Assembly: GCA_003152075.1 (NCBI GenBank) | Contig: PLZG01000072.1 | Coordinates: 75,099-139,098, forward strand | Length of the DNA stretch: 64,000 nucleotides | DNA from: a candidate division FCPU426 bacterium | GTDB lineage: Bacteria > Oederibacteriota > Muellerivitia > Muellerivitales > Muellerivitaceae | Direction of reading: 5' to 3' | Shown: positions 1,283 to 14,804 of the stretch, in pieces | Layout of the letters: every line of letters starts with the position of its first letter | Position numbering within the stretch: the first letter of the stretch is position 1 | The notes under the pieces: generated by a model | Told to the model about the DNA's origin: nothing | The model's database searches: none | What the model saw: the letters and a program-made list of their open reading frames with translations, nothing else | Made by a program: the position numbers and the translations under genes

Positions 1283-1330
1283 TTTTCACCGCCTCTGGCA
1301 AGAGGGGGGATCTCGCTATTCGGGGAGACC

Positions 1331-1410
1331 CCTGCGCCGAAGCCACAAGCTGGGCGCGTGTTTTGGGTGTACCAATTCCCCGGAAACAAGGAATTGGTAT
1401 TGCGGGGGCA
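1331..1410 (+). repeat. R5 two-hairpin repeat, copy A
   Basis: Hairpin 1 pairs GCGCC with GGCGC. It is followed by the linker GTGTTTTGGGTGT and hairpin 2, ACCAATTCC paired with GGAATTGGT. Outer bases CCCCTGC (1330-1336) and GCGGGG (from 1402) could pair and close both hairpins into a three-way junction. This copy lacks the A of the TGA on the 3' side of hairpin 1 that other copies keep. It lies between the divergent genes at 575-1282 and 1721-2503. Confidence 0.65.
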
Positions 1411-1720
1411 CGGGGTGGTAGGCCTTTGGGTCTTGCCGCACCGGGCCATATCAGTCTGCTCCCGGGGACTAGGACTGTAAACGAAAAAGGCGATTGTCGT
1501 TAAACCAAACAGGGGTGGGTGTAAACCGGGCAGGAGTGATAACAGATGTATTTTCGAGAGTAATAATGATTTGAGGTGGGTGGATTTTATTCAGCCATCG
1601 AATTTAATTATTTCGGGAACGGATCAGGTTTTTATGTTTTTGGTCCCTTGATTTCAACATTTGCGCACATCATTATTCATGATTATTCACAGGCGCATTA
1701 AATTGAAAAGGGAGCTTTAA
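1411..1720. other. Spacer upstream of the SDR gene
   Basis: These 310 bases carry no reading frame I believe. The last 110 bases become AT-rich and presumably hold the SDR promoter, but I see no good -35/-10 pair: TTGCGC near 1660 is followed by a poor -10. The ribosome binding site AAGGGAG precedes the SDR ATG by 6 bases. Confidence 0.4.
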
Positions 1721-2503
1721 ATGAATCTCACGGGACACACGGTTCTCATCACGGGCGGCGGGTCGGGCATCGGCGGGGGTTTGGCGAAGGCTTTTCACGA
1801 GCGGGGCAACAAGGTCATCATCACCGGCCGGCGGGAGCAAATCTTGAGGGATTTCGCCTCCAAGTTCCCGGGCATGGAAACTTTCACCATGGATGTGTCC
1901 AAGGACGGGGATATCCAAAAGCTTTTCAAGTTTGTCTCGGACAAGTTCCCTTCCTTGGATGTGCTGGTGAACAACGCGGGCATTCTGAGGATGACGGATT
2001 TCACCAAGTCCGATCCCCTGGGCGAGGATCCTTACGCGGAGATCGACATCAACGTCAAGGGACTCATCCGTATGACCACCACCTTCCTTCCCCTGCTTTC
2101 AAAGCAAAAGGGATCCACCCTCATTAACGTCAGTTCGGGATTAGCCTATGTTCCCCTCTCCATGGCCCCCATCTATTGCGCCACGAAAGCCGCGGTGCAC
2201 TCCCTTACCATGTCCCTGCGTCACCAGTTGCGGAACACCCCGGTCAGGGTCATTGAGCTGGCCCCGCCCGCCGTTGAGACCGATCTTGGCAAGGCGCCCG
2301 GACAAGAGGAATTCAAATACCCCAAGCTGGGGCTGGAACCCTTTATGGTTCAAACGATGAAGGCCCTGGAATCGGGCGCGATGGAACTGCCCATCGGCCA
2401 ATCCAAGATGCTGAAATTGGGCGGACGCCTTCTTCCTTCGGTGTTCTTCAACATGCTCAACCCGAAGAAGGCCCCTATGCCGAACTTACAAGGGGAGGCA
2501 TAA
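1721..2503 (+). CDS. Short-chain dehydrogenase/reductase (SDR), DltE-like
   Basis: This is a classical SDR oxidoreductase of 260 residues, the usual length. It has a Rossmann nucleotide-binding motif TGGGSGIG near residue 11, NNAG near 85, the catalytic Ser in the INVSSG strand, and the active-site YxxxK as YCATK near residue 150. SDRs of this type reduce or oxidise a carbonyl/alcohol with NAD(P)(H); the substrate cannot be read from sequence. The C-terminal region (KMLKLGGRLLPSVFFNMLNP) resembles DltE/YdfG-type SDRs. The ATG has a strong AAGGGAG site. It stands alone, followed by an R5 repeat and a terminator hairpin. Confidence 0.9.
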   Translation: MNLTGHTVLITGGGSGIGGGLAKAFHERGNKVIITGRREQILRDFASKFPGMETFTMDVSKDGDIQKLFKFVSDKFPSLDVLVNNAGILRMTDFTKSDPLGEDPYAEIDINVKGLIRMTTTFLPLLSKQKGSTLINVSSGLAYVPLSMAPIYCATKAAVHSLTMSLRHQLRNTPVRVIELAPPAVETDLGKAPGQEEFKYPKLGLEPFMVQTMKALESGAMELPIGQSKMLKLGGRLLPSVFFNMLNPKKAPMPNLQGEA

Positions 2504-2562
2504 GCCTAGGGTGTGCCCGATCAATGATAAAAAGATCGGATGCCCCAGCGGCCTGAAAGGCT

Positions 2563-2635
2563 CCCTGCGCCGAAACTTCCAGCTGAGGCGATGCCTTGGG
2601 TATGCTGATTCCTAAACAGGAATCAACGCCCCTGC
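2563..2635 (+). repeat. R5 two-hairpin repeat, copy B
   Basis: Hairpin 1 is GCGCC-GAA...TGA-GGCG, with the tandem G-A internal loop closed by an A-T pair. The linker is ATGCCTTGGGTATG. Hairpin 2 pairs TGATTCC with GGAATCA; the base changes relative to copy A occur on both sides, so pairing is kept. It sits just downstream of the SDR gene and just upstream (plus strand) of a terminator hairpin. Confidence 0.65.
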
Positions 2636-2640
2636 CCCGT

Positions 2641-2680
2641 AAAATAAAAAGGCCCCGATGTTAATCGGAGCCTTTTAAAA
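2641..2680 (-). terminator. Rho-independent terminator after the Pro-rich gene
   Basis: The stem GGCCCCGAT/ATCGGAGCC (2651-2659 with 2664-2672) has a 4-base loop. Read on the minus strand it is followed by a T-rich run (2641-2650), about 40 bases past the stop of the gene at 2712-2942. A shorter T run on the plus side means it may also stop leftover SDR transcription. Confidence 0.75.
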
Positions 2681-2711
2681 ATCTCGTTGAATTCTCTTGA
2701 GGAGCTAAAAA

Positions 2712-2942
2712 TTAGAGGATTTTGTTTAGTTTCGTTCCCGTTCCAGTAGGTTGATTCACCGGCGGGGGCGGGGCCGGATGGTTGATATTGACCTTGATCG
2801 GGGCGGCATGGGCCTGGGACACAGCGCCTTCGAAACGGGAATTGTCCACCTTCCTCGGGCCACCCGAGACATTAGAGGGAGGGGGCGCGGGATGGTTTTG
2901 CACTGGCTTGGAATTGTTGTTGATGGGGGTCGGTTTATTCAT
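2712..2942 (-). CDS. Small Pro/Asn-rich hypothetical protein (76 aa)
   Basis: This short, low-complexity, probably disordered protein is rich in Pro, Asn and Lys, with the phrase NHPAPPP repeated twice (near residues 16 and 54). The ATG is preceded by GAGGTG at 5-base spacing, and the gene is followed by a clear terminator, which argues that it is truly expressed. It has no signal peptide and no recognised family. A second low-complexity Pro/Ala protein is encoded at 7391-7702. Confidence 0.55.
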   Translation of the reverse strand: MNKPTPINNNSKPVQNHPAPPPSNVSGGPRKVDNSRFEGAVSQAHAAPIKVNINHPAPPPPVNQPTGTGTKLNKIL

Positions 2943-3027
2943 TTTTCACCTCGGGAACAAAATGGCCAGCTTTAAGGCTTTCAATCATTGTATCACCTCT
3001 TCAATGGGGACATGAACCCGCCTGATT

Positions 3028-3396
3028 TTACTTCGAAAAGGTTTTTTCCAGGAAAGCCTCCAAGGACTCCCTCTCCTCATTGACCATCAAAAGAAAATGA
3101 ATGCCGGCACCCTCGTCGTCAATCCAGGCCACTTCGGCGTAGATCGTCACGCACGGTTCCTTGTCGAGCAGGAAAATATCAGACTTGATGACATTCCCCA
3201 CCGCCAAGGGCTGGTCTACGGGGATGTACATTCCTTCCAAGCTCACGTCCAGGGTGTGGGTGTAACTTTCAGCCTTTCGACCCACTTCCAGGGTCCCGAA
3301 TTCACCCTCGCTCTCCACCAACCTGTATTTGACGGGTATCTTGATAGGCGCCCGGGGGGTTGTCCGCTTCTCCAGCACCTTATTTTCCGCAGGCAT
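3028..3396 (-). CDS. Stand-alone PilZ domain protein
   Basis: This is a 122-residue protein made of one PilZ domain, the family that binds cyclic di-GMP. The binding signature is complete: RxxxR as RTTPR at residues 11-15 and DxSxxG as DVSLEG near 49-54. It has no catalytic or membrane segment, so it is probably a small adaptor passing a c-di-GMP signal to motility, polysaccharide or secretion machinery; the partner is unknown. The ATG follows GGGAGGAAGTT. A paralog is encoded at 10440-10811, and the two share the N-terminal EKR-x-PR-P-KIPVK pattern. Confidence 0.9.
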   Translation of the reverse strand: MPAENKVLEKRTTPRAPIKIPVKYRLVESEGEFGTLEVGRKAESYTHTLDVSLEGMYIPVDQPLAVGNVIKSDIFLLDKEPCVTIYAEVAWIDDEGAGIHFLLMVNEERESLEAFLEKTFSK

Positions 3397-3502
3397 AACT
3401 TCCTCCCACTTAAAAAAGGAAAATTAATTTCAAAAGGTATTTTAGGCAGCGGGGGGGAATTTAATATGATTTGAATCAGTCAGGGCCTTATTAATAACTA
3501 CT

Positions 3503-4306
3503 TTATTTGAGGCCCTGTTGAAGGATATCCAGTAGGCTCAGCGTCTGATAGCCGTCGGGGGGTCTGAATGTTTCCTCGCCGAAGTCCCGGGGACTGACCG
3601 CGAGAATTTGAAAAAGGCTGGAGGGCTTTCCTTTCAAGTAGAGGATCTCGTAAACCGGCAGTTGGGGATCATAAAAGCCCTGTTTGAACGCGTCCGTATC
3701 AGCGCCCCACCGGGCCAGCTCGTCACCGCAAAACTCCACCACCAGATGGGCTAGGGCCCGCAGGGTGTTGTAGTCTTCCCCAACCATCCCCACCTGGTCC
3801 GGGTTGGCCACCCAAACTTCACGGGCCTTCTTTCCCTCCCAATCGGTCCGGTAGCTATCGCAGGTAAAACCATCTTTCCGGATTCCCTTGGCCCTTAAGG
3901 TGGGAACACCGTTAAAAAAAGCCTGGGCGTTCTCGCGGACCATTTGAAGGGCCTTGGCCCCGCTCTTTGATCCGTCGGCTTGACCCTCGAACTTGGCCGA
4001 GGCAACCGTGGCGATTAATTTAAGGGCGGCCTGGTTGTTCTGGCTGAGCGGCAGGGCGGTCTTGTGGAAATTGTCCACTATCGTCAGCAGGGAGCTATCC
4101 CGGTCGTAGAGGAGGGACCCGTGGGCCCAGGGCCCCACGAAATTGAGCCGCAGGTGCCCATCGCCGATGGAAGCCTCCACATCCACCCAGGCTTTTTTAT
4201 CCGAGTAGCTTTCCAAGTGGGCTTTCACCTCGGTGCCCGCCCAAAGGGGCGGCGCGCAGGAGGCGAGCAAGAAGAGGATTGTGATTTTTTTCATCAGGGC
4301 CATCAT
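3503..4306 (-). CDS. Secreted protein, DUF4412-like
   Basis: The N-terminus MKKITILFLLASCAPPLWA is a typical signal peptide. Translation may start at that Met (residue 5) instead of the one given, and neither start has a clear ribosome binding site. The mature part of about 245 residues is beta-rich with a late alpha-helical segment. Its general pattern (soluble periplasmic protein, LYDRDSSLLTIVDNFHKTALPL strand-turn region) resembles the DUF4412 group of envelope proteins; this is a tentative match and no activity is known. The R5 copies C1 and C2 lie directly upstream. Confidence 0.6.
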   Translation of the reverse strand: MMALMKKITILFLLASCAPPLWAGTEVKAHLESYSDKKAWVDVEASIGDGHLRLNFVGPWAHGSLLYDRDSSLLTIVDNFHKTALPLSQNNQAALKLIATVASAKFEGQADGSKSGAKALQMVRENAQAFFNGVPTLRAKGIRKDGFTCDSYRTDWEGKKAREVWVANPDQVGMVGEDYNTLRALAHLVVEFCGDELARWGADTDAFKQGFYDPQLPVYEILYLKGKPSSLFQILAVSPRDFGEETFRPPDGYQTLSLLDILQQGLK

Positions 4307-4359
4307 ACCGGTGTTGGTAAAAGTGATTCAAGGGAGGCATCTGCCCTGAACCCCCAGGC

Positions 4360-4430
4360 TTCTGCGTCGGGACTTCAAGTCGAGACGCATGAATTGAATG
4401 TGTCAAACCCACTATATAAAAGGGTTTGAT
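4360..4430 (+). repeat. R5 two-hairpin repeat, copy C1
   Basis: Hairpin 1 pairs TGCGTC (4362-4367) with GACGCA (4384-4389). The internal loop GG/GA is followed by a perfect inner stem GACT/AGTC. The linker is TGAATTGAATGTG. Hairpin 2 pairs TCAAACCC (4403-4410) with GGGTTTGA (4422-4429). Both stems differ in sequence from copies A and B but keep pairing. Confidence 0.65.
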
Positions 4431-4454
4431 GATGAAGGGCAAGGTTCGATGGTT

Positions 4455-4540
4455 TAAATCGCCCTCGGGCTTTAGCCCGGCGGGTGAATTGTGCCAAACT
4501 TGTCCCCTCAAGGGATTCCCAAATAAGGAATTGGTGCGGA
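4455..4540 (+). repeat. R5-related repeat, copy C2
   Basis: The first hairpin, CGGGC-TTTA-GCCCG, is nearly identical to the one at 7208-7225, including about 25 flanking bases. It is followed by GGGTGAATTGTGCC and a degenerate second stem, GCCAA paired with TTGGTGC about 45 bases later. It ends at the stop codon of the ABC exporter gene. Confidence 0.5.
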
Positions 4541-4542
4541 AG

Positions 4543-6408
4543 TCAGCCACCCGCCATATGCCGGTAATAGGCGTTGCTCCGGGCAACGGCGCCCGGCGCG
4601 CCAACGGCCTGTATCTTCCCTTTGACAATCACAATCACCTGGTCCGCGCCCCGGGCCAGGGCCGGGTGGTGGGTCAAGGCCAGTACGGTGCAGCGGCTCC
4701 GCAGGCCTTTCAACACTTTCAAAATATGGTCCTCATTGGCTTTGTCCAGGTTGGCCGTGGCCTCATCCAACACCAGAAGCCTCGGCTTCGCCAGCAAGGC
4801 CCGGGCAATCTGCAGGCGTTGCCTTTCCCCCAGCGACAGGGGGCCATGCCCATCCACCAGGAAAGTGTTCAAACCCCGGGGAAGGCGCCGCACCACCTCG
4901 GCCAAACCCGCCCCCGACAGGGCTTCCCAAGCCTGGCGCTCACCCGCGCCGGGCACCTGGTATAAAAGATTCTCCCTCACCGTGGTGCTGAACAATACCC
5001 CGTCCGCCGAAACCAGGGCGGTGGCCTTGCGTAAATCTTCCTCGGACAAATCCCGCAGGTTCTGGCCGTCCAAAAAGATTTTCCCGCGCGTCACCGGCCT
5101 GAGTCCCAGGATCAACTCGGCCAAGGTGCTCTTCCCCGATCCGGAAGGCCCCACCAGCGCGTTCACCTTTCCGGGAAGAAGGGCGAAGTTGACCTTGTGG
5201 AGGACTTTTGAGCCATGGCTGTATTGATAGTCCAAGCCTTCCAGGCTCACCCGGCCCGGCCCCGGACCCAGCGGATCCCTCCCGAAAATTTCCGGCTTGC
5301 GCACGGCCAGCCGCAAGCCCCGGCGGAAGGAAGCGATATGGTCCTGGATCACCACCGCCATTCCGGAAAGCGAATCCAAGGGGTCATAAACCTGGTCGAT
5401 ATAAGCCACCAACATCACCACATCCCCTGGGGTTAACTGCCTTTCAAAGGCCTTCCATCCGCCCACCAAGAGCACCACGGCCTTGCTCATCTGCACTAAA
5501 AACTCCTGGCCGAAAAGGCTCCAGGCGCCCAGGCGGTCCCGCTTCACGGCCCCCGCGTAAGCGGTGTAGGTTTCCTTCCCTAAGGCCCTTAATTCCCGCT
5601 CCGAAGCCCCGCTGGCCCGGACCGTCTTTAATCCCGCCAGGCTCTCGGAGATTCTTCCGGAAATGGACTGCCATTGTTGGTAGTAGGCGTCCAGGTTCAC
5701 ACCCAGCTGGCGTGTGGAAGCCACCGCCACCCAGGCGTAAAAGGGCAGGGGTGCCAGGGCAAGCGCCGCCAGCAGGGGGCTTTGGTAAAGCATGATCACC
5801 AGAATGCCCGCCAGGCGGATGGCCTCCGGTCCGGCCCTCAAGGCCAGCATGGTCACCACGGGCTCGACCTGCTCCACCTGGTCCACCTGCTTGGCCAGGA
5901 ACGAGGCCCTTTCCAAACTGTCCCGGCTTAAAGGCAGGTGAAGGGCCTTTCGGAAAGCCGCGAGGATGACCGCCCTTTCCATTCCGTGGCCCGCGCGGCT
6001 GGTTTTTATTTCCGCCCAGGCTGAGGTGAAGGATGCCAACAAGGCAATCAATAAAAGCAGCCCCACCACCAGGGTCAAGGTTGCCATCGCCTGCCGGGGG
6101 GTGCGGTGCGCCACCGTGGTGCGCGTGTGGGGTTTCTTCGATTTCAACGTCTTGAAAAAGGACGCTTCCACCTTTTCAAGGGGGTCTTCGGCCTGGCCGC
6201 TCCCCACAAAGACACCGGCCACATCGTTGACCGCCTCCCGGTAAAGAATGGGTTGCAGTAAAAGCAGAAGGCTGGAAAAGCCGGCCAGGGCCAGGATGCC
6301 CAGGAAAAGCCAGCGTTGCCTCAAGGCCATTTTGAAGAGGCTTCTCAGCGGCCGGGCCGCGTCCAGATCCGTTTCAAGAGCCGCGCCCCCAGCGAATTCC
6401 ACCGTCAC
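4543..6408 (-). CDS. ABC exporter, fused membrane and ATPase domains
   Basis: This is a 621-residue half-transporter of the type I ABC exporter fold. TM1 is at about 35-57, TM2 at 110-135, further TM pairs lie at 195-232 and 305-350, and the ATPase domain runs from about 385 to 615. Walker A GPSGSGKST is at 420-428, signature LSLGE at 524-528, Walker B LLVLDE at 544-549, and the switch His is in THHP. Such proteins dimerise and export lipids, peptides or drugs; the substrate is not evident. Odd points: a charged loop of about 45 residues between TM1 and TM2, and Ala468 where the Q-loop Gln is expected (VSAD instead of VSQD). Translation starts at GTG behind AGAGG. Confidence 0.92.
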   Translation of the reverse strand: MTVEFAGGAALETDLDAARPLRSLFKMALRQRWLFLGILALAGFSSLLLLLQPILYREAVNDVAGVFVGSGQAEDPLEKVEASFFKTLKSKKPHTRTTVAHRTPRQAMATLTLVVGLLLLIALLASFTSAWAEIKTSRAGHGMERAVILAAFRKALHLPLSRDSLERASFLAKQVDQVEQVEPVVTMLALRAGPEAIRLAGILVIMLYQSPLLAALALAPLPFYAWVAVASTRQLGVNLDAYYQQWQSISGRISESLAGLKTVRASGASERELRALGKETYTAYAGAVKRDRLGAWSLFGQEFLVQMSKAVVLLVGGWKAFERQLTPGDVVMLVAYIDQVYDPLDSLSGMAVVIQDHIASFRRGLRLAVRKPEIFGRDPLGPGPGRVSLEGLDYQYSHGSKVLHKVNFALLPGKVNALVGPSGSGKSTLAELILGLRPVTRGKIFLDGQNLRDLSEEDLRKATALVSADGVLFSTTVRENLLYQVPGAGERQAWEALSGAGLAEVVRRLPRGLNTFLVDGHGPLSLGERQRLQIARALLAKPRLLVLDEATANLDKANEDHILKVLKGLRSRCTVLALTHHPALARGADQVIVIVKGKIQAVGAPGAVARSNAYYRHMAGG

Positions 6409-6555
6409 GGTCGGCCTCTTTTCTTGAGCGGGGTTAGGGGGATCTTTTTAAGGATAATGAAATGGGAAGCTAAACCCAAGGATTAAGAATTTTAGCTTGG
6501 AAAAAGGAAAGTCATCGGTATTTCGCGTCACCTGGGAGACTTTTTCAGCGCTCGG

Positions 6556-7074
6556 TTAGGCGAGCAGTTTAAGTATTTCCCTCATGAAGGCCGGAAGATC
6601 ATCAGGCTTACGGCTGGTCACCATGCGGCCGTCCACCGTCACTTCATCATCCACCCACTTCGCGCCCGCGTTTACCAGGTCGTCCTTCAAGGCGGGCGTG
6701 GAGGTCATTTTTTTACCCCTCACGACCCCCGCTGAAATCAGTATCCAAGGCCCGTGGCAGATGGAAGCCATGACGCCTCCCTGTTTGTCGATATCGGCCA
6801 CCAGCTTTAGCACCGCGGGGTTGCGGCGCAGTTTATCGGGCATCCAGCCTCCCGGCGCCACCAAACCCGAATAGTCTTCGGCCTTTGCCTTGGAAATTTC
6901 CAGGGTGGACAGGCAAGGGTACCCGTTTTTACCCATGTATTTCGTCCCCGCCGGGTCTTCCCCGATAACGTCCACAATAAACCCAGCCTCAATGAGGCGG
7001 TAAAGGGGATACATCACTTCCATATCCTCAAAATCCTTCCCGACCAAAAGCGCTATTTTTTTCTTGGTTGCCAT
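6556..7074 (-). CDS. DJ-1/PfpI family protein (YhbO-like)
   Basis: This is a 172-residue class I glutamine amidotransferase-like protein of the PfpI/YhbO branch. The nucleophile elbow ASICHGPW holds the reactive Cys and the following His, and APGGWMPDKLRR is the family's oxyanion-side motif. Members are described as stress-protective deglycases, glyoxalase-like enzymes or proteases; which applies here cannot be told. The start is placed at the Met of MATKKKIALLVGK because AGGGGGG lies 6 bases before it; nine upstream codons are in frame but lack a ribosome binding site. It stands alone. Confidence 0.9.
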   Translation of the reverse strand: MATKKKIALLVGKDFEDMEVMYPLYRLIEAGFIVDVIGEDPAGTKYMGKNGYPCLSTLEISKAKAEDYSGLVAPGGWMPDKLRRNPAVLKLVADIDKQGGVMASICHGPWILISAGVVRGKKMTSTPALKDDLVNAGAKWVDDEVTVDGRMVTSRKPDDLPAFMREILKLLA

Positions 7075-7083
7075 AAGAACCCC

Positions 7084-7157
7084 CCTGCCCCGAGGTCTCA
7101 AACCGAGGGGCGTGAATTGGGTGTACCAATTTTAGGTGATAAAAGAAATTGGTGCCT
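7084..7157 (+). repeat. R5 two-hairpin repeat, copy D1
   Basis: Hairpin 1 is GCCCC-GAGGT-ctcaa-ACCGA-GGGGC, with the tandem G-A loop closed by a G-C pair. The linker is GTGAATTGGGTGTACC. Hairpin 2 pairs CCAATT with AATTGG. It lies immediately upstream of the PfpI gene (opposite strand) and overlaps its ribosome binding site region. Confidence 0.7.
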
Positions 7158-7297
7158 CCTGCTCCGAGACCACTAGTCGAGGAGCGAGTTTCGATGATTT
7201 TTATCGCCCTCGGGCTTTAGCCCGACGGGTGGGTGTGCCGGTCCTAGGGAACGAGCCTGCGAGGGCCCAAACTGGGACCGACCCCCTTTTTTTATTT
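7158..7297 (+). repeat. R5 copies D2/D3 ending in a terminator-like T run
   Basis: D2 is an isolated hairpin 1: GCTCC-GAGAC-cacta-GTCGA-GGAGC (7161-7185). D3 has CGGGC-TTTA-GCCCG (7211-7224), the linker GGGTGGGTGTGCC, then CGGTCC paired with GGGACCG (ending at 7280). It is followed by ACCCCC and a T-rich run at 7287-7300. On the plus strand this looks like the 3' end of a transcript. No plus-strand protein gene lies upstream. The rest of the gap up to 7390 holds an R6 repeat. Confidence 0.5.
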
Positions 7298-7340
7298 TAT
7301 CCGGGATCGGCGCTGGTTTTGAACTTCGGCCCCGAGGGGG

Positions 7341-7372
7341 CTTGCGGTGAGCGACCAGCGGGAGTCGAACCG
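7341..7372. repeat. R6 short repeat, copy 1
   Basis: The sequence TGCGGTGAGCGACCA followed by GCGGGAGTCGAACC matches the copy at 11551-11575, and less exactly a stretch inside the reading frame at 20116-20397. It resembles the end of a larger, partly degraded dispersed element. Confidence 0.4.
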
Positions 7373-7390
7373 TCGAAGTCGGTGGTGGGT

Positions 7391-7702
7391 TTACCGACGG
7401 CCCTGTGAACCGCCGCCACGACCGTCCCTTGACTTGTTCTTCGCTTCATTCGGGTTGTAGCCGGCGAACCGGTTCCAACCGCCCGCCACGTTTCCCTGCG
7501 TTTGGGGAATTGGCCCCTTAAATATTTCAACTGGCTTGGGCGCGGCGGTCACCGCGGGAGCGGGGGTCACTGCTGGTGTTGCAGGCACTGCCGGCGTGGC
7601 AGCGGCCGGAACGGCTGTCGCTTCCGGGGTACTCGCCACCGGGGCTGGAACAGCTGCTGGTACCGGCGCTGTTTCCTGGGGGGTATTATTCAACGTATCC
7701 AT
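7391..7702 (-). CDS. Ala/Pro-rich low-complexity protein (103 aa)
   Basis: Residues 10-57 are almost entirely Ala, Pro, Val and Thr (PAVPATPAVTPAPAV type), followed by a short hydrophilic tail rich in Gly, Asn and Arg. It has no signal peptide, so it is likely a disordered cytoplasmic protein or linker. The ATG follows AAGGAAATCAC. The family is unknown. The composition is unlike the neighbouring enzymes, and the frame is open on the plus strand as well, so confidence is moderate. Confidence 0.45.
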   Translation of the reverse strand: MDTLNNTPQETAPVPAAVPAPVASTPEATAVPAAATPAVPATPAVTPAPAVTAAPKPVEIFKGPIPQTQGNVAGGWNRFAGYNPNEAKNKSRDGRGGGSQGRR

Positions 7703-7796
7703 GTGATTTCCTTTTTTGGCCTTGTGAAGCCTTGATGTTTCAAAACGGCCTATAGGTTAGGCATTTAAGAGGGAAAAAGATAGCGATTCTTAATGA

Positions 7797-8672
7797 TTAG
7801 TAACGTCCCACTTGGTTCGTGATGACCAGGAAGTAAACCGCTCCCCCAATCAAGACGATCCCGAAAAAAATCAAAAAGAAAGCCGCCCAGCCCAGGGAAC
7901 TCTCCAGGCTCTTTTGGCTCTTGGCCGAAACCATGAAAACCTCGCCATGCTGGCCCTGGGACAGGCAAATATCCTTAGCCGCCCCATCGGGGGCGTTCCC
8001 GGGCGTTGGGGAAGCCTGGCAGACGCCCAGGATATAAAGGTCCTGTCCCACCAAAAAGGCCCTTTCGGAAAAGCGAAGCGGCCTGCTAAAGCCGAAGAGG
8101 CCGTGGCAATCCACGCCCCGGGTCTTGAGGAACTGGTCAATGTGGGGGGGAACGTCCGAGAAAAATCCGGGGGTCAGCTCATATTCCCCCACCAGGACCT
8201 TTTCGGCCTTTGCCGGTTTCACCAGGGCCAACCCCGTTCCGTCATCCACGTAGAAGGGCGTTTCGGAAGTGTCCCCCTGCTGGATCACGGCCCAATAGGT
8301 TTCGGTGTGCTCGTCCTTCCCCGTTCCCACCCTGCGGGTCCGCTGCTCCTCCACCGTGTACTCGAAATAAACGCAGGCTTTTTGGGAAAAGGGCCCGGTA
8401 AGGGGAAGCCAATCGTGGGCCTTGCCGATCACCACCACCTCTCCCGGCGCCATGGACCGGATGAGGGAAGTGGGGGTGTCTTCCATCAGCCGTTTTTTGC
8501 GAAGGTCGGCGAAACCCTTGAGGAACAAGAACAGGCCGAGAATAAGGCCCACGCCGCCAATGATGTTAAAGACCAGGAATTGGCTATCGTCGGCGAAAGC
8601 CGGGCTGGGGCCGATAAACCCGGACAGCGCCAGGAAAAGGAATAGTCCGTGGAAACTTAAAAGGCCCTTCAT
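7797..8672 (-). CDS. GIDE-domain membrane protein (MULAN-like, without RING)
   Basis: This 291-residue membrane protein has a signal peptide/TM at 7-27, a TM at 33-52, a central soluble region of about 180 residues and a C-terminal TM pair region around 265-288. The central part (ARGEVVVIG-like APGEVVVIGKAHD, then CVYFEYTVEEQ, LFGFSRPLRFSERAFLVGQDLYILG) matches the GIDE domain first described in mitochondrial E3 ligase MUL1. Bacterial members lack the RING finger, and their role is unknown. The ATG overlaps the stop of the upstream lemA-like gene by 4 bases, so the two are translationally coupled. LemA-GIDE pairing is a recurrent bacterial arrangement. Confidence 0.8.
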   Translation of the reverse strand: MKGLLSFHGLFLFLALSGFIGPSPAFADDSQFLVFNIIGGVGLILGLFLFLKGFADLRKKRLMEDTPTSLIRSMAPGEVVVIGKAHDWLPLTGPFSQKACVYFEYTVEEQRTRRVGTGKDEHTETYWAVIQQGDTSETPFYVDDGTGLALVKPAKAEKVLVGEYELTPGFFSDVPPHIDQFLKTRGVDCHGLFGFSRPLRFSERAFLVGQDLYILGVCQASPTPGNAPDGAAKDICLSQGQHGEVFMVSAKSQKSLESSLGWAAFFLIFFGIVLIGGAVYFLVITNQVGRY

Positions 8673-9265
8673 GGGGAAAAAACCGGGGTGATGGGTTCTT
8701 TCTCATCGGCGCCCGCGTGAAAAAGCTCCCGGGGCTTGAAACCCGTGTAAGAGGCCACCATCGAATCCGGAAATTCCAGGGTCCGCTTGTTATAGTCCGC
8801 CACCGAGTCGTTGTAGAAGCTCCGCCGGTCGGCGATTTCGGTTTCGATATCCGAAAGGCGTTTTTGAAGCCTCAGGAAGTTTTCCTGGGCCTTCAGGTTG
8901 GGGTAGTTTTCCGCCACCGCGAAGAGATGGTTCAGGGAGGAGGACAGGGCCCCCTCGGCCTGCCCCTTTTGGGATACAGTCTGGGCCCCCTGGGCGGCGG
9001 TTCGGGCTTGGGTGATGGTTACCATAACTTCCTTTTCAAAGTCTTTAACTCCCCCCACCACCGCCACCAGGTTCGGCACCTCATCATGGCGTTGTTTAAG
9101 GAGCACGTCCACGTTGGCCCAGGCCTTGTCGATATCCACCCTCAGGCGCACCAGGTTGTTGTAGATCATCAGGGCGTAAAGAAGAACCGCCAGGACGAGG
9201 AACACCACCCCCGCGGCGATGGTGGAAGAAAGGGCCATATCATCTATCCCGTGAAACATATCCAT
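8669..9265 (-). CDS. LemA family membrane protein
   Basis: This 198-residue protein has one N-terminal TM (about 13-35) followed by a long helical domain. The hallmark LemA sequence is present: YNNLVRLRVDIDKAWANVDV, then LLKQRHDEVPNLV, and FNNAVADYN-like YNDSVADYNKRTLEFP near the end. LemA proteins are widespread envelope proteins of unknown biochemical role. It is followed directly, with a 4-base ATGA overlap, by the GIDE gene, so the products probably act together at the inner membrane. An AGAGG site lies 9-10 bases before the ATG. Confidence 0.93.
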   Translation of the reverse strand: MDMFHGIDDMALSSTIAAGVVFLVLAVLLYALMIYNNLVRLRVDIDKAWANVDVLLKQRHDEVPNLVAVVGGVKDFEKEVMVTITQARTAAQGAQTVSQKGQAEGALSSSLNHLFAVAENYPNLKAQENFLRLQKRLSDIETEIADRRSFYNDSVADYNKRTLEFPDSMVASYTGFKPRELFHAGADEKEPITPVFSP

Positions 9266-9364
9266 TTATTTTTACCTCTTAGGGCTTATGGCGAAAAAGT
9301 CATCATTCATGGCAAATGATGAGTAAGCGGAGCTAATCGAACCACTGACCCTTTTTTGTTTCAG

Positions 9365-9652
9365 TTAGTCCAACCTCAATAACCTCTCGCTTCTCCAAAT
9401 ACGGATAATCCAAATTTTGTGGGGGTCCCTCTGATAAACAATTCGAAACGGAGAAAAGATAATTTCCCGGACAAATTCCATTTCAAACTCGGGCACAACC
9501 CTGCCGGAATCAGGGAAGGAAGCCAATCTTTCAATTTTTTTGAGAATGTCCAAGATAAACTGACGGCCCTTTTCCGGAACCCCCTGTTCCCGGTGGTAAT
9601 CCAGGATATCCCCCAGGTCATCCCAGGCAGGTTGGGTAATTTCGATCTTCAT
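9365..9652 (-). CDS. RelE/ParE family toxin
   Basis: This 95-residue protein has the RelE/ParE fold pattern: ITQPAWDDLGDILDYHREQG (helical hairpin), then a beta-sheet with FPDSGRVVPEF, FVREIIFSPFRIVYQRD and a C-terminal IWRSERLLRLD. It resembles ParE more than RelE because it lacks the catalytic basic set of ribosome-dependent RNases; ParE members poison DNA gyrase. The gene starts 6 bases after the stop of the Phd-type antitoxin gene, a standard antitoxin-first operon. Confidence 0.9.
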   Translation of the reverse strand: MKIEITQPAWDDLGDILDYHREQGVPEKGRQFILDILKKIERLASFPDSGRVVPEFEMEFVREIIFSPFRIVYQRDPHKIWIIRIWRSERLLRLD

Positions 9653-9658
9653 TTTGGG

Positions 9659-9928
9659 TCACTTCAACCCATATTTCGCCCTTGCTTCCGCCACACTATA
9701 GGTCCGCCCTTTTCCTACGGCCTTTAAACCTTCCACCACCGCCCTCATAAAAGCCATCTCCTCGGCTTGACTCTCGTAATCGGCGACGGATTGGACGACC
9801 GCAACCCCCTTGCCATGGCTGGTCAAGAGCACCGGACGGTGGGCTTCCTTTACTTGATTGATCACTTTGGCGGGATTGGCCTTCATCGTGGTCACTGTTA
9901 CGACATCTTGGGAAAATTTAACATTCAT
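9659..9928 (-). CDS. Phd/YefM family antitoxin
   Basis: This 89-residue antitoxin shows the Phd/YefM pattern: a strand, then TTMKANPAKVINQVKEAHRP, then VLLTSHGKGVAVVQSVADYE (DNA-binding half), and a flexible C-terminal tail that would wrap the toxin. The start is set at the Met of MNVKFSQ because an AGGAGG site lies just before it. Phd-type antitoxins neutralise the cognate ParE and repress their own operon; an operator should lie in the bases upstream, where R5 copy E also sits. Confidence 0.9.
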   Translation of the reverse strand: MNVKFSQDVVTVTTMKANPAKVINQVKEAHRPVLLTSHGKGVAVVQSVADYESQAEEMAFMRAVVEGLKAVGKGRTYSVAEARAKYGLK

Positions 9929-9948
9929 CGGAGCCTCCTGATTACCCA

Positions 9949-10012
9949 CCACTTACCCACAAGGAAAGTGGCGAGGGTTGGTAATGCCAATTGAACGGCA
10001 ATTGGTAAGGTC
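9949..10012 (+). repeat. R5-like repeat, copy E, upstream of the phd/parE operon
   Basis: CCACTT (9949-9954) can pair with AAGTGG (9966-9971). The linker is GGTTGGTAATG, and hairpin 2 pairs CCAATTG with CAATTGG (9987-9993 with 9999-10005). The linker is a degenerate match to TTGGGTGTGCC. The element lies about 20 bases upstream of the antitoxin start, so on the minus strand it would fall in the promoter or leader. Confidence 0.45.
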
Positions 10013-10344
10013 TTTGTTTAGGTCTTTCTAATGGTCTTAATATAGCACCTATCATTTACCCTTTCCATCCACATTTAGACGCCGTCACCCGCCGCGAACA
10101 TTCCGAGAACTTGGCGGGAAGCTGGGCCTGGCAGGCGAAGCCAGATGAGCGGTTGGCGAGAGTTGGTTTAAACTCCCAACTCCTCACTCCTAACCCCAAA
10201 CTGTGTTCCGTGGGGGGCCTGGCAAGGGTATCACTTAGAAACCTACCGGCCCTCCTCAAGGCAATACAAGAGGGGTTGTTTGGTGATGGGATGGAATGAT
10301 TTCGGGCACCTGCTGCGAGCCTTCTGAAGAACTGGCGAGATGAT
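10013..10344. other. Intergenic stretch without a recognisable gene
   Basis: It holds several imperfect hairpins (for example around 10108-10140 and 10240-10275) and a run similar to the R3 arms (ACTCCCAACTCCTCACTCC near 10171). I see no coding frame with a ribosome binding site. It may be a graveyard of repeats. Confidence 0.4.
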
Positions 10345-10392
10345 GTGCCTGGATACAGGCACTTTGTGCCAACTGTATAAGAAACAGTTGGC
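10345..10392 (+). repeat. R5-like repeat, copy F
   Basis: Hairpin 1 pairs GTGCCTG with CAGGCAC (10345-10351 with 10356-10362). The linker is TTTGTGCC. Hairpin 2 pairs GCCAACTG with CAGTTGGC (10368-10375 with 10385-10392). This is the most compact copy and lacks the tandem G-A loop. Confidence 0.5.
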
Positions 10393-10439
10393 ATGAACGG
10401 ACCGCGGGAGGGCGGAGGAATTCGGAATTCAAATAGGAA

Positions 10440-10811
10440 TTACATTTTTGAGGAGGGTTCTTTCAAGAAAGCCTCAAGGGCCATCAAAACCTCATTTTCG
10501 ATCATCACGAAGCGAAGTCCGGCACCGGATTCCTTGGACCAAACAACCTCCCCAAAAGCCGTAAGAGGGTTGGTGCTGCCCGGAAGCGTGATTTCGAGGT
10601 ACAGTATGCTTCCCGGGTTAAGCTTTTGATCAGCCACGATGTACAAGCCGTTTAAACTAATATCCAGGGTTTGGGTGTCGGTCAAAGTTTTGCTCATATC
10701 AATAACGAATTGGATTCCCGCCATTTCATCGACCAAATGGAATTTGACGGGGATTTTAACCGGGACTCGTGGATTGGCCCGCTTTTCAACGACTAAATTC
10801 GCCTCGTCCAT
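10440..10811 (-). CDS. Stand-alone PilZ domain protein, second paralog
   Basis: This 123-residue single PilZ domain has both c-di-GMP motifs intact: RxxxR as RANPR near residue 12 and DxSxxG as DISLNG near residue 50. It is about 40 percent identical by eye to the PilZ protein at 3028-3396, so the two likely arose by duplication. The ATG chosen lies 6 bases after AGGAG; an in-frame TTG two codons upstream is less likely because it overlaps the ribosome binding site. It is probably a c-di-GMP-dependent adaptor with unknown target. Confidence 0.9.
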   Translation of the reverse strand: MDEANLVVEKRANPRVPVKIPVKFHLVDEMAGIQFVIDMSKTLTDTQTLDISLNGLYIVADQKLNPGSILYLEITLPGSTNPLTAFGEVVWSKESGAGLRFVMIENEVLMALEAFLKEPSSKM

Positions 10812-10835
10812 CGGCAACTCCTAGCTTTATAATAG

Positions 10836-10858
10836 CACAAAGGGGTCTGGCCCCTTTG
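10836..10858 (-). terminator. Possible terminator hairpin after the relE-like gene
   Basis: AAAGGGG/CCCCTTT forms a 7-bp stem with a 5-base loop just past the stop of the toxin gene. There is no long T run on the minus strand, so this is a weak call; it may also be a decayed repeat. Confidence 0.35.
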
Positions 10859-10861
10859 TTC

Positions 10862-11152
10862 TTAGCGAGAGTAAGCGTCTTTTCGAGGATCAACCGTGAT
10901 TAAAGAAACGATCTTGTCTTTCTCACTGATCTCATAAAAAACTCTCCAAGAACCAATCCGGTATCGCCAAGTCTCATGTTCCCAATTTCTAAGTTTTTTG
11001 ATGTTAGGACCAAAATGAGGCTGGACTTTCAATTGAGGATAAACATAATCACTCAATTTTTCTTTCAATTTCTCGCGGACCGGCTTATCCAAAGCTTCCA
11101 AGTCCTCAATGAAAATTGACGTCTCAAAAAGCCGGTAATTACCAGGGGTCAA
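10862..11152 (-). CDS. RelE-type toxin
   Basis: This 96-residue protein has the RelE/YafQ-like architecture: an N-terminal strand (YRLFETSIF), a helical hairpin (EALDKPVREKLKEKLSDYVYPQL), then beta strands with KLRNWEHETWRYRIGSWRVFYEIS and KIVSLITVDPRKDAYSR. Arg and Tyr residues in WRYRIGSWRVFYE are positioned like those of mRNA-cleaving RelE toxins, so ribosome-dependent or free mRNA cleavage is likely. The start is a TTG that overlaps the stop of the antitoxin gene (TTGA), implying translational coupling. Confidence 0.85.
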   Translation of the reverse strand: MTPGNYRLFETSIFIEDLEALDKPVREKLKEKLSDYVYPQLKVQPHFGPNIKKLRNWEHETWRYRIGSWRVFYEISEKDKIVSLITVDPRKDAYSR

Positions 11153-11397
11153 GCCACAAACCGGCCATGCTTTTTATGGGCGGCTTTGGAGCCGGCTTTC
11201 AACCGGGAAACTAATTTGGCATCAGACCGGATGCCCCCCATTTCCTTAACCGTCACCATTTCGCATTCCTGCAAATGGCGTTTAGCGGCCGTCTCGATCA
11301 AATTGGCCATGGGACGGTTGTCAGCCTCGGCATAACCTTTGAATAATTTGTAATCCTGATCGGACAATCGAATGGTTATGGTTTTTGACATATTCAT
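11149..11397 (-). CDS. Ribbon-helix-helix antitoxin
   Basis: This is an 82-residue protein. Residues 3-50 form a ribbon-helix-helix domain (KTITIRLSDQDYKLFKGYAE followed by a second helix, ANLIETAAKRHL), the DNA-binding fold of many RelB/CopG-type antitoxins. The C-terminal 30 basic residues would contact the toxin. It precedes and overlaps the relE-like gene by 4 bases. Two ATGs, three codons apart, are possible; neither has a strong ribosome binding site. It probably autorepresses the operon. Confidence 0.85.
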   Translation of the reverse strand: MNMSKTITIRLSDQDYKLFKGYAEADNRPMANLIETAAKRHLQECEMVTVKEMGGIRSDAKLVSRLKAGSKAAHKKHGRFVA

Positions 11398-11479
11398 TTC
11401 TTTTAATTCTTTTTACTTCTATTTGATTTTAAGTTAAACCCCAACCTTTTTCAAGGCGATTTACGGAGCGAATCGTGGG

Positions 11480-11578
11480 CATGCCTTGTGTAGCCTTGGC
11501 GAAGTCAGGAAAGCAGGCTAGCTGTCTTACTTTTCTACCCTGCGGTGAGCGACCAAAGGGACTCGAATCCGTTTCACA
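11480..11578. repeat. R6 repeat, copy 2
   Basis: The stretch contains AGCCTTGGCGAAG and, 50 bases later, CCTGCGGTGAGCGACCAAAG followed by GGACTCGAATCC. The same two blocks occur in the same order, read on the minus strand, around 20300-20390, and the second block occurs alone at 7341. The surrounding gap 11398-11620 has no gene. Confidence 0.4.
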
Positions 11579-11620
11579 CATTTGAACAATTTTTTGTTTC
11601 TACCTGCCCGTCCCCATCCC

Positions 11621-12544
11621 TTAGGGGTAAAAGCAGTAATTGATCCGCGCCTCGAACGTGTCGGCGCTGTAAGGAATCCCTATGGGGAAGCTGGAGGGCA
11701 GGAAGTTCCCCACCGAATAATAGGCGTTCCCCGGAATCGTGTCGTAGCCGGGATCGAAAATAATCCCCGCGTTGTAGCAGATGGCCACCCAGCAAAATCC
11801 CGCGGAAACAAAGGTGGGGGTTATGGCAAAGGTGGCGTCCAGCCCTGAAGCCGCGACATTCAAGTTCCTCGCCGTCGAAAGTGCCAGCCGGCCCCCGGGA
11901 ATACCCGAGTTGTCCGAGTAGAGGGCCACGTTCACGTTGGCCGGGCCAGCTTGGATCAGGTTGGCGTTGAAAGTAAGGCTGCTGACGTATCCACTGCGGG
12001 GAACGGAAACCTGCTGGTAGATGGTGTCGCCCGGGCCCATGCCCATGGAAAAGACGGGGGTCATGCTGGGCCCGGCCGTGGCGCAGGTAGTAGGGGTAAA
12101 GGTATTGGTGATGGTCGCGGTGGGTGTCTTGGTGGGGCTATTGGTGGGGGTGCGGGTGATGGTCACGGTCGGGCTGTTGGTGGGGGTGAAAGTTTGAGTG
12201 AAGGTCGCGGTGGTCAGGATGGTCACGGGGGTGTCGGTGGAAGTGGGCGTCGGGGTAATGGTGGGACTCAGGGTGAAGGTAAAGCTGGGCGTGGGCGAAC
12301 CGGTTGGGGTAAAGGTGGAGGTCGAAAGAATAGTTACGGGCGTATAGGTCGAAGTGGGCGAAGTGGTGAGGGTGAAGGTGGAAGTCGGTGAACCGGTCGG
12401 GGTGTCGGTGGCGGTCACCAATTTATAGATGGTCACCGGCGGCTGGATAATGGTCGTTGGAGAATTGGCGCAGGAAACCGGGAAAAACCACAAGAGGGAT
12501 AGAGTGAAGAGGATTAATCCGCTGAGAAAATATGATTGACGCAT
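11621..12544 (-). CDS. Thr/Pro-rich secreted (lipo)protein, short paralog
   Basis: This 307-residue surface protein starts with a hydrophobic signal segment ending in PVSC at about residue 25, a loose lipobox. Residues 45-150 are a Thr/Pro/Ser stalk of two 31-residue-type units (TPTGSxTSTFTLT...VTILSTSTF). The rest is a beta-rich module framed by Cys at both ends (first Cys near 158, last in INYCFYP). Signal, stalk and upstream region are near copies of the gene at 12925-14517, so the genes are tandem duplicates that then changed stalk length and head domain. The role is probably cell-surface display or adhesion; not known. Confidence 0.75.
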   Translation of the reverse strand: MRQSYFLSGLILFTLSLLWFFPVSCANSPTTIIQPPVTIYKLVTATDTPTGSPTSTFTLTTSPTSTYTPVTILSTSTFTPTGSPTPSFTFTLSPTITPTPTSTDTPVTILTTATFTQTFTPTNSPTVTITRTPTNSPTKTPTATITNTFTPTTCATAGPSMTPVFSMGMGPGDTIYQQVSVPRSGYVSSLTFNANLIQAGPANVNVALYSDNSGIPGGRLALSTARNLNVAASGLDATFAITPTFVSAGFCWVAICYNAGIIFDPGYDTIPGNAYYSVGNFLPSSFPIGIPYSADTFEARINYCFYP

Positions 12545-12610
12545 GCAACCACCCGTTGGGAACCTGTATTGGTTGGAAAGTTTATCTTCACCCCCCGGGA
12601 TGGGTCAACC

Positions 12611-12638
12611 AGTATAAATCCGGCCAAATCACCCACAA
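12611..12638 (-). promoter_or_regulatory. Conserved promoter of the short Thr/Pro-rich gene
   Basis: On the minus strand the -35 is TTGTGG and the -10 is TATACT, separated by 16 bases, about 70 bases before the ATG. The block is almost identical to the one upstream of the paralog at 14517, although the bases between it and the start codons differ. That conservation is the main support. Confidence 0.6.
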
Positions 12639-12665
12639 GACGGTCCCGTGGAGGGATCGAGTACT

Positions 12666-12828
12666 GCCCCTGCGCCGAAACCAGGAAGGACGTCTAACTT
12701 GCCCGTCCTATGTCGATCCCACAAGGCGAGACATAAGGTTTGGTCTTATCCATTCCATTGGAATGGATGCAAGCTGAGGCGCATGGCTTGGGTGTGCCAA
12801 TTCCACTGGAAGATGGAATTGGTGCGGG
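12666..12828 (+). repeat. R5 two-hairpin repeat, copy H, expanded
   Basis: It starts CCCCTGCGCCGAAAC and ends hairpin 1 with AGCTGAGGCGCATG, but the loop holds about 100 extra bases that fold into at least three further hairpins (AGGACG...CGTCCT is imperfect; ATGTC...GACAT; TCCATTCCATTGGAATGGA). The linker GCTTGGGTGTGCC and hairpin 2, CCAATTCC/GGAATTGG, are canonical. CCCTGC and GCGGG can close the whole element. It lies downstream of the long Thr/Pro-rich gene. Confidence 0.65.
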
Positions 12829-12924: not shown

Positions 12925-14517
12925 CTATTGGCAGAATTCCACGGAGAGGGAAAGGGGGTAAGTCGAGAATACTGTAGAAGGGCCGAAACTTGCGGGGCTA
13001 GTCACGGCCCCGGTCGCCCAATAGCCCGGACTTGGACTGCTGAGACCAACGACATAAGAGATACCGTTAAGGAAGGAGGGATAGGTATAGGTTCCAACAT
13101 AATAGGTCTGGCCCGATGTGATGGTGTAATCGGAAAGGGGAAGGGTCAGGGTAATCGGGCTGGAACCCGTATAGGCCGGGAAGGTGTAGATGCCCGAAGA
13201 GGACACAAGGTTGGTCATCTGGCCGCCCGAATTGTCGTAAATGAGCAGCTGCAGCATATCCCCGCCTTGAGCCTGGACCAGAAGGCTGACCTGGCGCAGG
13301 GCGCCGCTGGCCGGAGCGACGTAAGGAGAATAAATAAAGTAACCATTGCTGATGCCAGTGCCGGTATTTGATCCCGGGTTGAGATTCCCGAGGGTGCCGC
13401 TGGCGCCGCAAGGCGTTTTCGTGGGGGTCGCGGTGGGCGAATTGGTGGGGGTGCCAGTTTCGGTCGGGGTCGAGGTAGCCGTAAAGGTATAGGTCGGAGT
13501 AGCCGTGGAAGGCGGAGTCGTCCCGGGATAAACGCAATAGTCGGCGCGCACCGAAACCTTGTTGTTGGTCGCGGAGTAATTACCGCTGTAGGAGGAAGGG
13601 TAATTCCCGCCGTTCCAGGGGTCGCTCAAGCGGTACACCATCTGGCTCACCTGGGTTTCATCCAGTACCAGTCCCACGTTGGGCCCGGAACTTTTCACGG
13701 CCAGCCAATAGGTGCCGGGGTTTAAGGGGGTGTCGGGCAGGGGCATTTGGTTCCATCCCGGCGCCATCAGCTGGGGCGTCCCCTGGATGATCAGGTTCCC
13801 GGGGGACCCCGAAACATCATCGTAAATCGCCAGGTTGATGCTGTATCCGGTGGCGGCGTTCGTCAGCTCCACCCGCAAGTCCTTCATCGTCGCCAGGATG
13901 GAAAGGGTGAAGGCGGAGCATATGGTATGGTTCGGCCCATAGAGGGTATTGCTCCCGTTCCCCGCCCCGCCGAAGCTGGAGCAATTGGTGGGAGTCCCGG
14001 TGGGGGTTGTCGTCGGGCTGTTGGTTGCAGTCGGGGTGATAGTCATGGTCGGGCTATTCGTGCAGGTAAAAGTCTCCGAAAAGGTCGCGGTAACGAGAAT
14101 CGTCACAGGGGTAAAGGTAGAGGTCGGCGAAGGCGTGATCGTGGGCGAATTCGTTAGGGTAAAAGTAGGGGTGGCCGAACCAGTCGGGGTGAAGGTGGAG
14201 GTTGAAAGAATAGTTACGGGTGTATAGGTCGAAGTGGGCGAAGAGGTGAGGGTGAAGGTGGAAGTCGCCGAACCGGTCGGGGTAAAGGTGGAGGTGGAAA
14301 GGATGGTCACGGGCGTATAGGTCGAAGTGGGCGAAGTGGTGAGGGTGAAGGTGGAAGTCGGCGAACCGGTCGGGGTGTCGGTAGCAGTCACCAATTTATA
14401 GATGGTCACCGGCGGCTGGATAATGGTCACCGGGCTATTGGTGCAAGAAACCGGGAAAAACCACAGGAGGGACGCGGTAAAGAGGACTAATCCGCTGAGA
14501 AAATAAGATTGGCGCAT
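12925..14517 (-). CDS. Thr/Pro-rich secreted (lipo)protein, long paralog
   Basis: This 530-residue protein has the same signal segment as the paralog at 11621-12544. It has a Thr/Pro-rich stalk with three 31-residue-type units (about 48-185), a first beta-rich head module (about 188-330, from TNCSSF to DYCVYP), a second TPT linker, and a second module (about 370-530, from PCGASG to VEFCQ). Each module begins and ends with a Cys, suggesting disulfide-closed jelly-roll domains outside the cell. It is likely anchored or lipidated at the N-terminus. It has its own conserved promoter upstream and is followed by R5 copy H. Confidence 0.75.
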   Translation of the reverse strand: MRQSYFLSGLVLFTASLLWFFPVSCTNSPVTIIQPPVTIYKLVTATDTPTGSPTSTFTLTTSPTSTYTPVTILSTSTFTPTGSATSTFTLTSSPTSTYTPVTILSTSTFTPTGSATPTFTLTNSPTITPSPTSTFTPVTILVTATFSETFTCTNSPTMTITPTATNSPTTTPTGTPTNCSSFGGAGNGSNTLYGPNHTICSAFTLSILATMKDLRVELTNAATGYSINLAIYDDVSGSPGNLIIQGTPQLMAPGWNQMPLPDTPLNPGTYWLAVKSSGPNVGLVLDETQVSQMVYRLSDPWNGGNYPSSYSGNYSATNNKVSVRADYCVYPGTTPPSTATPTYTFTATSTPTETGTPTNSPTATPTKTPCGASGTLGNLNPGSNTGTGISNGYFIYSPYVAPASGALRQVSLLVQAQGGDMLQLLIYDNSGGQMTNLVSSSGIYTFPAYTGSSPITLTLPLSDYTITSGQTYYVGTYTYPSFLNGISYVVGLSSPSPGYWATGAVTSPASFGPSTVFSTYPLSLSVEFCQ

Positions 14518-14611: not shown

Positions 14612-14804
14612 AACGGACCTGTGGAGAGATCGCGAGAGGGATGTTTCAAAATGGTTAATGTTGGCCTGATCCCTTTTTTGCGTTGCAGCCTGGCCCCTTT
14701 GTTCCGTTGCCAATTTACTAAAATTCTTGTTAGATTTTTACCGGCCTTCGATTACTAACTAATTTCCCAAAACCTAAAGATACATTCTCCCAGCCCCCTG
14801 GCCC

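Follow-up and report, generated by a model that had tools for sequence, protein, structure and literature searches.

Two-hairpin repeats with strongly covarying stems in an uncultured bacterial family: a probable family of short mobile palindromic DNA

Introduction

The window analyzed in this study, a stretch of 64,000 nucleotides from an uncultured bacterium, carries repeated copies of a short element that can fold into two hairpins and whose stems change on both sides in step. The locus raises the question of what is being folded and why the pairing is kept: a structured RNA, as the preliminary description proposed, or a strand of DNA.

Structure and covariation of the element

The seed for a covariance model of 75 positions consisted of eleven copies of this genome, from inside and outside the window, which were picked mostly via the linker. 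The 77-column seed alignment opens with CCCCTG and a stem of 5 bp, then shows a GA/GA internal loop and a stem of 3 bp with a loop of 5 nt (hairpin 1, H1), followed by a short spacer, TTGGGTGTGCC, and hairpin 2 (H2), which starts within the final CC. The repeat unit with its two hairpins measures approximately 75 bases (about 70-90 bp), and some copies harbor extra hairpins inside the linker. The TTGGGTGTRCC linker alone occurred 21 times genome-wide, compared with 5 times for the reversed control.

In the seed alignment, two-sided change was found in 12 of 15 pairs (shuffled mean, 4.9), 93.9% of the cells paired against at most 45% once slid, and none of 500 shuffles reached the covariation score. 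The 77 distinct copies of this genome were 92.1% paired with a covariation score of 0.675 (0.206 when shuffled), and 78 copies from relatives were 97.1% paired with a score of 0.748 (0.203 when shuffled). The preliminary description had reported the two-hairpin layout, the GA/GA loop, the covarying stems, and the fixed linker, and had suggested a statistical covariation test; this test was passed in all three sets, and the covariance model, the alignments, the scores, and the recurring copies uphold the element as real. The remark that it belongs to no known RNA family was also borne out, as Rfam models gave no match in the window at gathering scores and none at the element positions of seven loci at a relaxed E-value. 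The covariation means that pairing is maintained; it does not show that the folded molecule is RNA.

An inner hairpin within hairpin 2, with the conserved loop GRAGTTTACGA, was observed at L099:14303, L096:3794, L125:8973, and L058, and this loop is common to two genomes, G000 (this genome) and G004.

Copies in the window and across genomes

Scoring of the window by the covariance model, with its filters switched off, gave six clear copies and several weaker ones (about ten in total), all on the plus strand and all before 12.83 kb (Table 1). The statement that all copies are on the plus strand within 13 kb is therefore correct for the window and fails genome-wide, where other contigs bear some 80 further matches on both strands. 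The copy formerly called H is present, although it is actually an outer element into whose first hairpin loop another has been inserted; its 3' half (12755-12827) is counted among the six strong model matches, and inserts similar to its inner, type-2 element occur in five other nested copies of this genome.

Table 1. Two-hairpin elements located in the window
Position	Strand	Feature	Score or remark
1329..1402	+	Complete two-hairpin element (copy A of the preliminary description)	81.4 bits, E 8e-23
2472..2545	+	Element across the stop codon of a short-chain dehydrogenase-like ORF (1721-2503)	60.7 bits; ORF end 2503
2562..2631	+	Second element, in tandem, just downstream of the 2472..2545 copy	60.2 bits
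4359..4434	+	Element with stem TGCGTC/GACGCA; H2 TCAAACCC/GGGTTTGA	53.5 bits
7082..7157	+	Copy B, abutting the start of a minus-strand PfpI/DJ-1-like ORF	82.8 bits
7158..7281	+	Second, longer unit with extra linker hairpin (CGATGATTTTTATCG plus CCCTCGGGCTTTAGCCCGACGGG)	Read from sequence and model; H1 (7158-7209) 24.9 bits, linker plus H2 9.5 bits
9945..10010	+	Divergent element	19.5 bits, E 4e-4
10307..10393	+	Degenerate element with extra linker hairpin GATGTGCCTG..CAGGCACTT	13.4 bits, H2 only (10365-10391); remainder read from sequence
12667..12827	+	Outer element split in the hairpin 1 apical loop (copy H)	Removal of the insert gives a 6-bp lower H1 stem plus intact linker
12684..12770	+	Inner (type-2) element: GGAAGGACG..CCCGTCC hairpin, H1, GTTTGGTCTTATCC linker, H2 ATTCC..GGAAT	24.6 bits at 12705-12751

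The 4.1 Mb genome contained 87 matches to the covariance model (E up to 1), and the other seven genomes of the family all carried copies, with 1 to 29 in each. Copy number varies widely even within a genus (72 in G000 and 4 in G001). The element is restricted to one family of uncultured bacteria, with essentially none in the other phylum genomes that were searched: a first model search of 31 other phylum genomes gave one weak match only, and a stricter search of 37 gave no match. Additionally, a scan of some 85,000 genomes with the linker plus an H1 arm yielded 17 scattered matches in unrelated taxa, which were taken as chance. Near-identical copies (90-94% over 49-90 nt) start at the same model position despite unrelated flanks.

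As a separate case, the copies at 96-165 and 1418-1487 of locus L124 lie within a 378-bp direct duplication that is 97.6% identical and 1.3 kb apart.

Genomic context and presence in genes

Genes were called by a simple codon-based method of our own. Copies between co-directional genes were antisense to them in 34 cases and sense in 8 (26:8 when counted by region, p = 0.003), and no bias with GC skew or replication strand was detected (18 vs 16 regions). The distances from copies to neighboring start and stop codons were scattered, which is unlike a cis-regulatory element. Same-orientation copies form clusters with a spacing of 1-5 kb.

Comparison of orthologs showed that the element is present or absent at given sites. 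The ortholog in G005 of the PfpI-like gene beside copy B, encoding an 81% identical protein, lacks the element at its start, and the ortholog in G002 of a gene that carries a copy in its 3' end in this genome (L125) is likewise without one. In a helicase gene that is AddA/UvrD-like by its sequence, G001, G004, and G005, which represent three genera, have one element each at different places, and each place is empty in the other two genomes. A few copies are conserved in place, namely at secA across genera and at a tRNA, nth, and two further genes within one genus.

At least 29 copies lie in genes: 29 of the 148 copies tested were in open frames flanked on either side by coding signal (30 frame readings). 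Twenty-two of the in-gene copies are antisense, and 20 of these 22 are read in one common frame, although one of the three frames of the antisense consensus contains a stop and the sharing of a frame is therefore partly forced. The in-gene copies often encode a similar peptide, e.g., AGSPMEPAQP...EASAQ.

DNA or RNA

Functional RNA stems tolerate G-U pairs and do not tolerate A-C. Accordingly, the stems of 14 tRNAs in the fetched loci had 20 G-T/G-U and no A-C mismatches. Among the element stems, the copies of this genome had 42 G-T and 38 A-C mismatches and those of the relatives 28 and 8, counts that lean towards G-T since the copies were found with a G-U-tolerant model. The near-equal numbers in this genome are mild evidence against RNA, whereas the lean in the relatives indicates that folding of the plus strand as a single strand, whether RNA or DNA, matters to some degree. 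The dominance of perfect pairs may be due to selection acting on DNA folded as a single strand, to one arm being copied anew from the other, or to both.

These observations make a structured RNA family, acting as a cis-regulatory element or a small RNA, very unlikely. Such an RNA would account for the stem covariation, the tandem GA loop, and the fixed linker, and it would suit the G-T preference in the relatives and the few copies conserved in place, but it does not suit copies that are mostly antisense to genes, inserted in-frame inside them, nested in one another, not kept at the PfpI-like gene of G005, and free of a preference for G-T over A-C in this genome. Of the original proposal, the structural description thus stands; the new RNA family is not supported, in view of the dispersal, the antisense and in-frame genic placement, the absence from orthologs, and the nesting.

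The covariation might also be mutational, in that template switching within a palindrome re-copies one arm from the other and no selection is involved. One-sided intermediates are few, Watson-Crick pairs far outnumber G-T, and at secA-linked and tRNA-linked sites common to several genomes both arms were seen by eye to have altered together. We regard this as an unlikely full explanation, because it accounts for the stems and not for the conserved linker, the GA/GA loop, the dispersal, or the nesting; it is compatible with mobility, however, and both can act together.

Nested insertions and direct repeats

Nine nested insertions were identified, in each of which the outer element is whole and laid out like an uninterrupted copy once the inner one is removed. 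The insert lies in the apical loop of hairpin 1 in eight cases and of hairpin 2 in one; its ends were placed by eye with an accuracy of one to three bases, and a complex tenth candidate (L097) was left uncounted. In locus L114, the interrupted copy at 2297 has a close relative at 7572 that carries no insert.

Flanking direct repeats exceeded the 99% level of randomly paired flanks at 10 of the 147 copies tested. The repeats at some sites span 24-83 bp, most copies have none, and no constant target duplication was seen among the 147. For example, about 81 bp are repeated immediately on either side of the element at nth in G007, and the 3' end of secA is repeated at the element in G002 and G004. 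Tandem duplication can explain part of these direct repeats, since several of the ten repeat-flanked copies are units of tandem arrays or adjoin other copies.

At L178, L182, and L108 (secA) and at L169 and L203 (nth; names read from sequence), the gene 3' end, including its cysteine motif, is duplicated after the element. The duplicated 3'-end unit is repeated twice at nth in G002, and positions 5928-6295 of L174 form a three-copy tandem array with a 148-bp period.

Search for a mobilizing enzyme

Searches for Y1 transposases, integron integrases, TnpB-type nucleases, and reverse transcriptases identified no enzyme that would mobilize the element; tyrosine recombinases are present. A TnpB-type nuclease (PF07282) was found in none of the eight genomes, so a guide RNA of IS605-type TnpB was rejected. 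Retrotransposed RNA was rejected as well, because reverse transcriptase is missing where it is needed, in the five copy-bearing genomes G002, G004, G005, G006, and G007.

The GTAG/CGTC REP families and RAYT REPtrons resemble the element in combining a hairpin with a conserved single-stranded motif, in forming dimers, and in having intragenic copies, which have been reported for them, and the CGTC families are without a dedicated transposase (PMC3733652). Our element differs from them as a larger two-hairpin unit in which the GTAG/CGTC end tag was not seen and which is not located at the ends of the inspected Y1 genes. Y1 transposase genes are present in six of the seven relatives and absent from G000 and G006, both of which are rich in copies. 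The four Y1 genes read in relatives bear AAAGGGGCCAGGCC-type inverted repeats near their ends instead of the double-hairpin element, and a clear copy was found near 1 of 14 Y1 regions, some 1.4 kb off. Membership in a REP/RAYT system was rejected on this basis, as it calls for a repeat-flanked Y1 transposase. That REP-type palindromes were moved by a Y1 (RAYT/IS200-like) transposase since lost from G000 and G006 appears quite unlikely: the hairpin with its single-stranded tag recalls REP biology, REPs are known within genes (PMC3733652), and most relatives keep Y1 genes, but the Y1 genes read carry other repeats, hardly any Y1 region has a copy nearby, and copy number does not track Y1 presence.

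The comparison with transposon and integron recombination sites, suggested in the preliminary description, was the right one to make, although the integron reading fails. The same-orientation clusters recall attC sites in cassette arrays; despite these arrays, this origin is hardly credible and was rejected, since no integron integrase (TIGR02249) scored above the cut-off in any of the eight genomes and RYYYAAC/GTTRRRY boxes were not seen by eye at the element ends. The copies inside genes also speak against it.

A probable mobile palindromic DNA

Dispersal over unrelated contexts, the antisense lie, in-frame genic copies, absence from orthologs in relatives, and nesting together suggest that the element forms a family of short, non-autonomous pieces of palindromic mobile DNA, similar in kind to the Rickettsia palindromic elements (RPE); we put the probability of this reading at roughly two in three. 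Mobility is its confident part, and the placement fits mobile DNA; the single-strand mechanism is a tentative guess, somewhat less likely than not. One strand, exposed as single-stranded DNA, would fold into both hairpins, and an enzyme acting in trans would read the GA/GA loop and the TTGGNTGTGCC linker, so that the stems could change in sequence. Once folded, a copy would be joined to a new site, which may be the exposed loop of another copy. The fold might be kept because only foldable copies can move or because the sequence of one arm is copied anew from its partner. The lack of a mobilizing enzyme, the G-T lean in the relatives, the few copies conserved in place, and the non-constant target duplication count against this explanation. 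A narrower version, in which self-nesting DNA targets the loop that a folded single strand exposes, only the fold, GA/GA loop, and linker are read, and the mover is an unrecognized enzyme or the host replication or transcription machinery alone, seems rather doubtful.

Among known systems, mitochondrial double-hairpin elements are likewise described as compact mobile two-hairpin repeats (e.g., PMC4478555, PMC5910586), although of organelle genomes; they are likened here by description. RPE insertions in protein genes keep the frame and encode a conserved peptide (PMC2229807, PMC10969869), and RPE consist of a single long stem with terminal inverted repeats of about 12 bp (PMC2229807). Both RPE and our element are dispersed palindromic repeats of roughly 70-150 bp that lie between genes, in-frame within protein genes with a similar peptide, and also beside or in RNA genes, and for both the mobilizing enzyme is not known. 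Our element shares with RPE the short dispersed palindromic repeat (87 matches to the 75-position model) and the in-frame insertion with a conserved peptide (29 elements, with the common frame in 20 of 22 antisense cases), whereas a single long stem with terminal inverted repeats is replaced by two independent hairpins and an unpaired linker. It differs further in that it belongs to another bacterial lineage, has a GA/GA loop and a fixed linker, covaries strongly on both sides of its stems, nests within its own hairpin loops, and shows 24-83 bp direct repeats at some sites and no enclosing terminal inverted repeat that we could see. Compared by description rather than by sequence, RPE appear to be the closest known kind, and the element seems to work like one; it is not filed as an RPE because of its two-hairpin layout and its nesting in loops.

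Selfish palindromes within protein genes have mainly been viewed as peculiar to Rickettsia and Wolbachia. The present element is a case from another family, which is uncultured; its structural covariation is strong, it is inserted in-frame into genes such as that of the AddA-like helicase, and it is inserted into its own loops. It provides material for studying the movement of palindromes and the origin of new linkers in proteins, and a warning that strong covariation alone is no proof of a functional RNA.

Other repeats in the window

A separate repeat family of AAAGGGG..CCCCTTTGTT palindromes and half-sites was observed at 10838-10860 and about 14690-14705 of the window, and these palindromes resemble the inverted repeats beside the Y1 transposase genes of the relatives. 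Additionally, the adjoining ORFs at 11621-12544 and 12925-14517 contain long valine/threonine-type repeats and have similar 5' ends.
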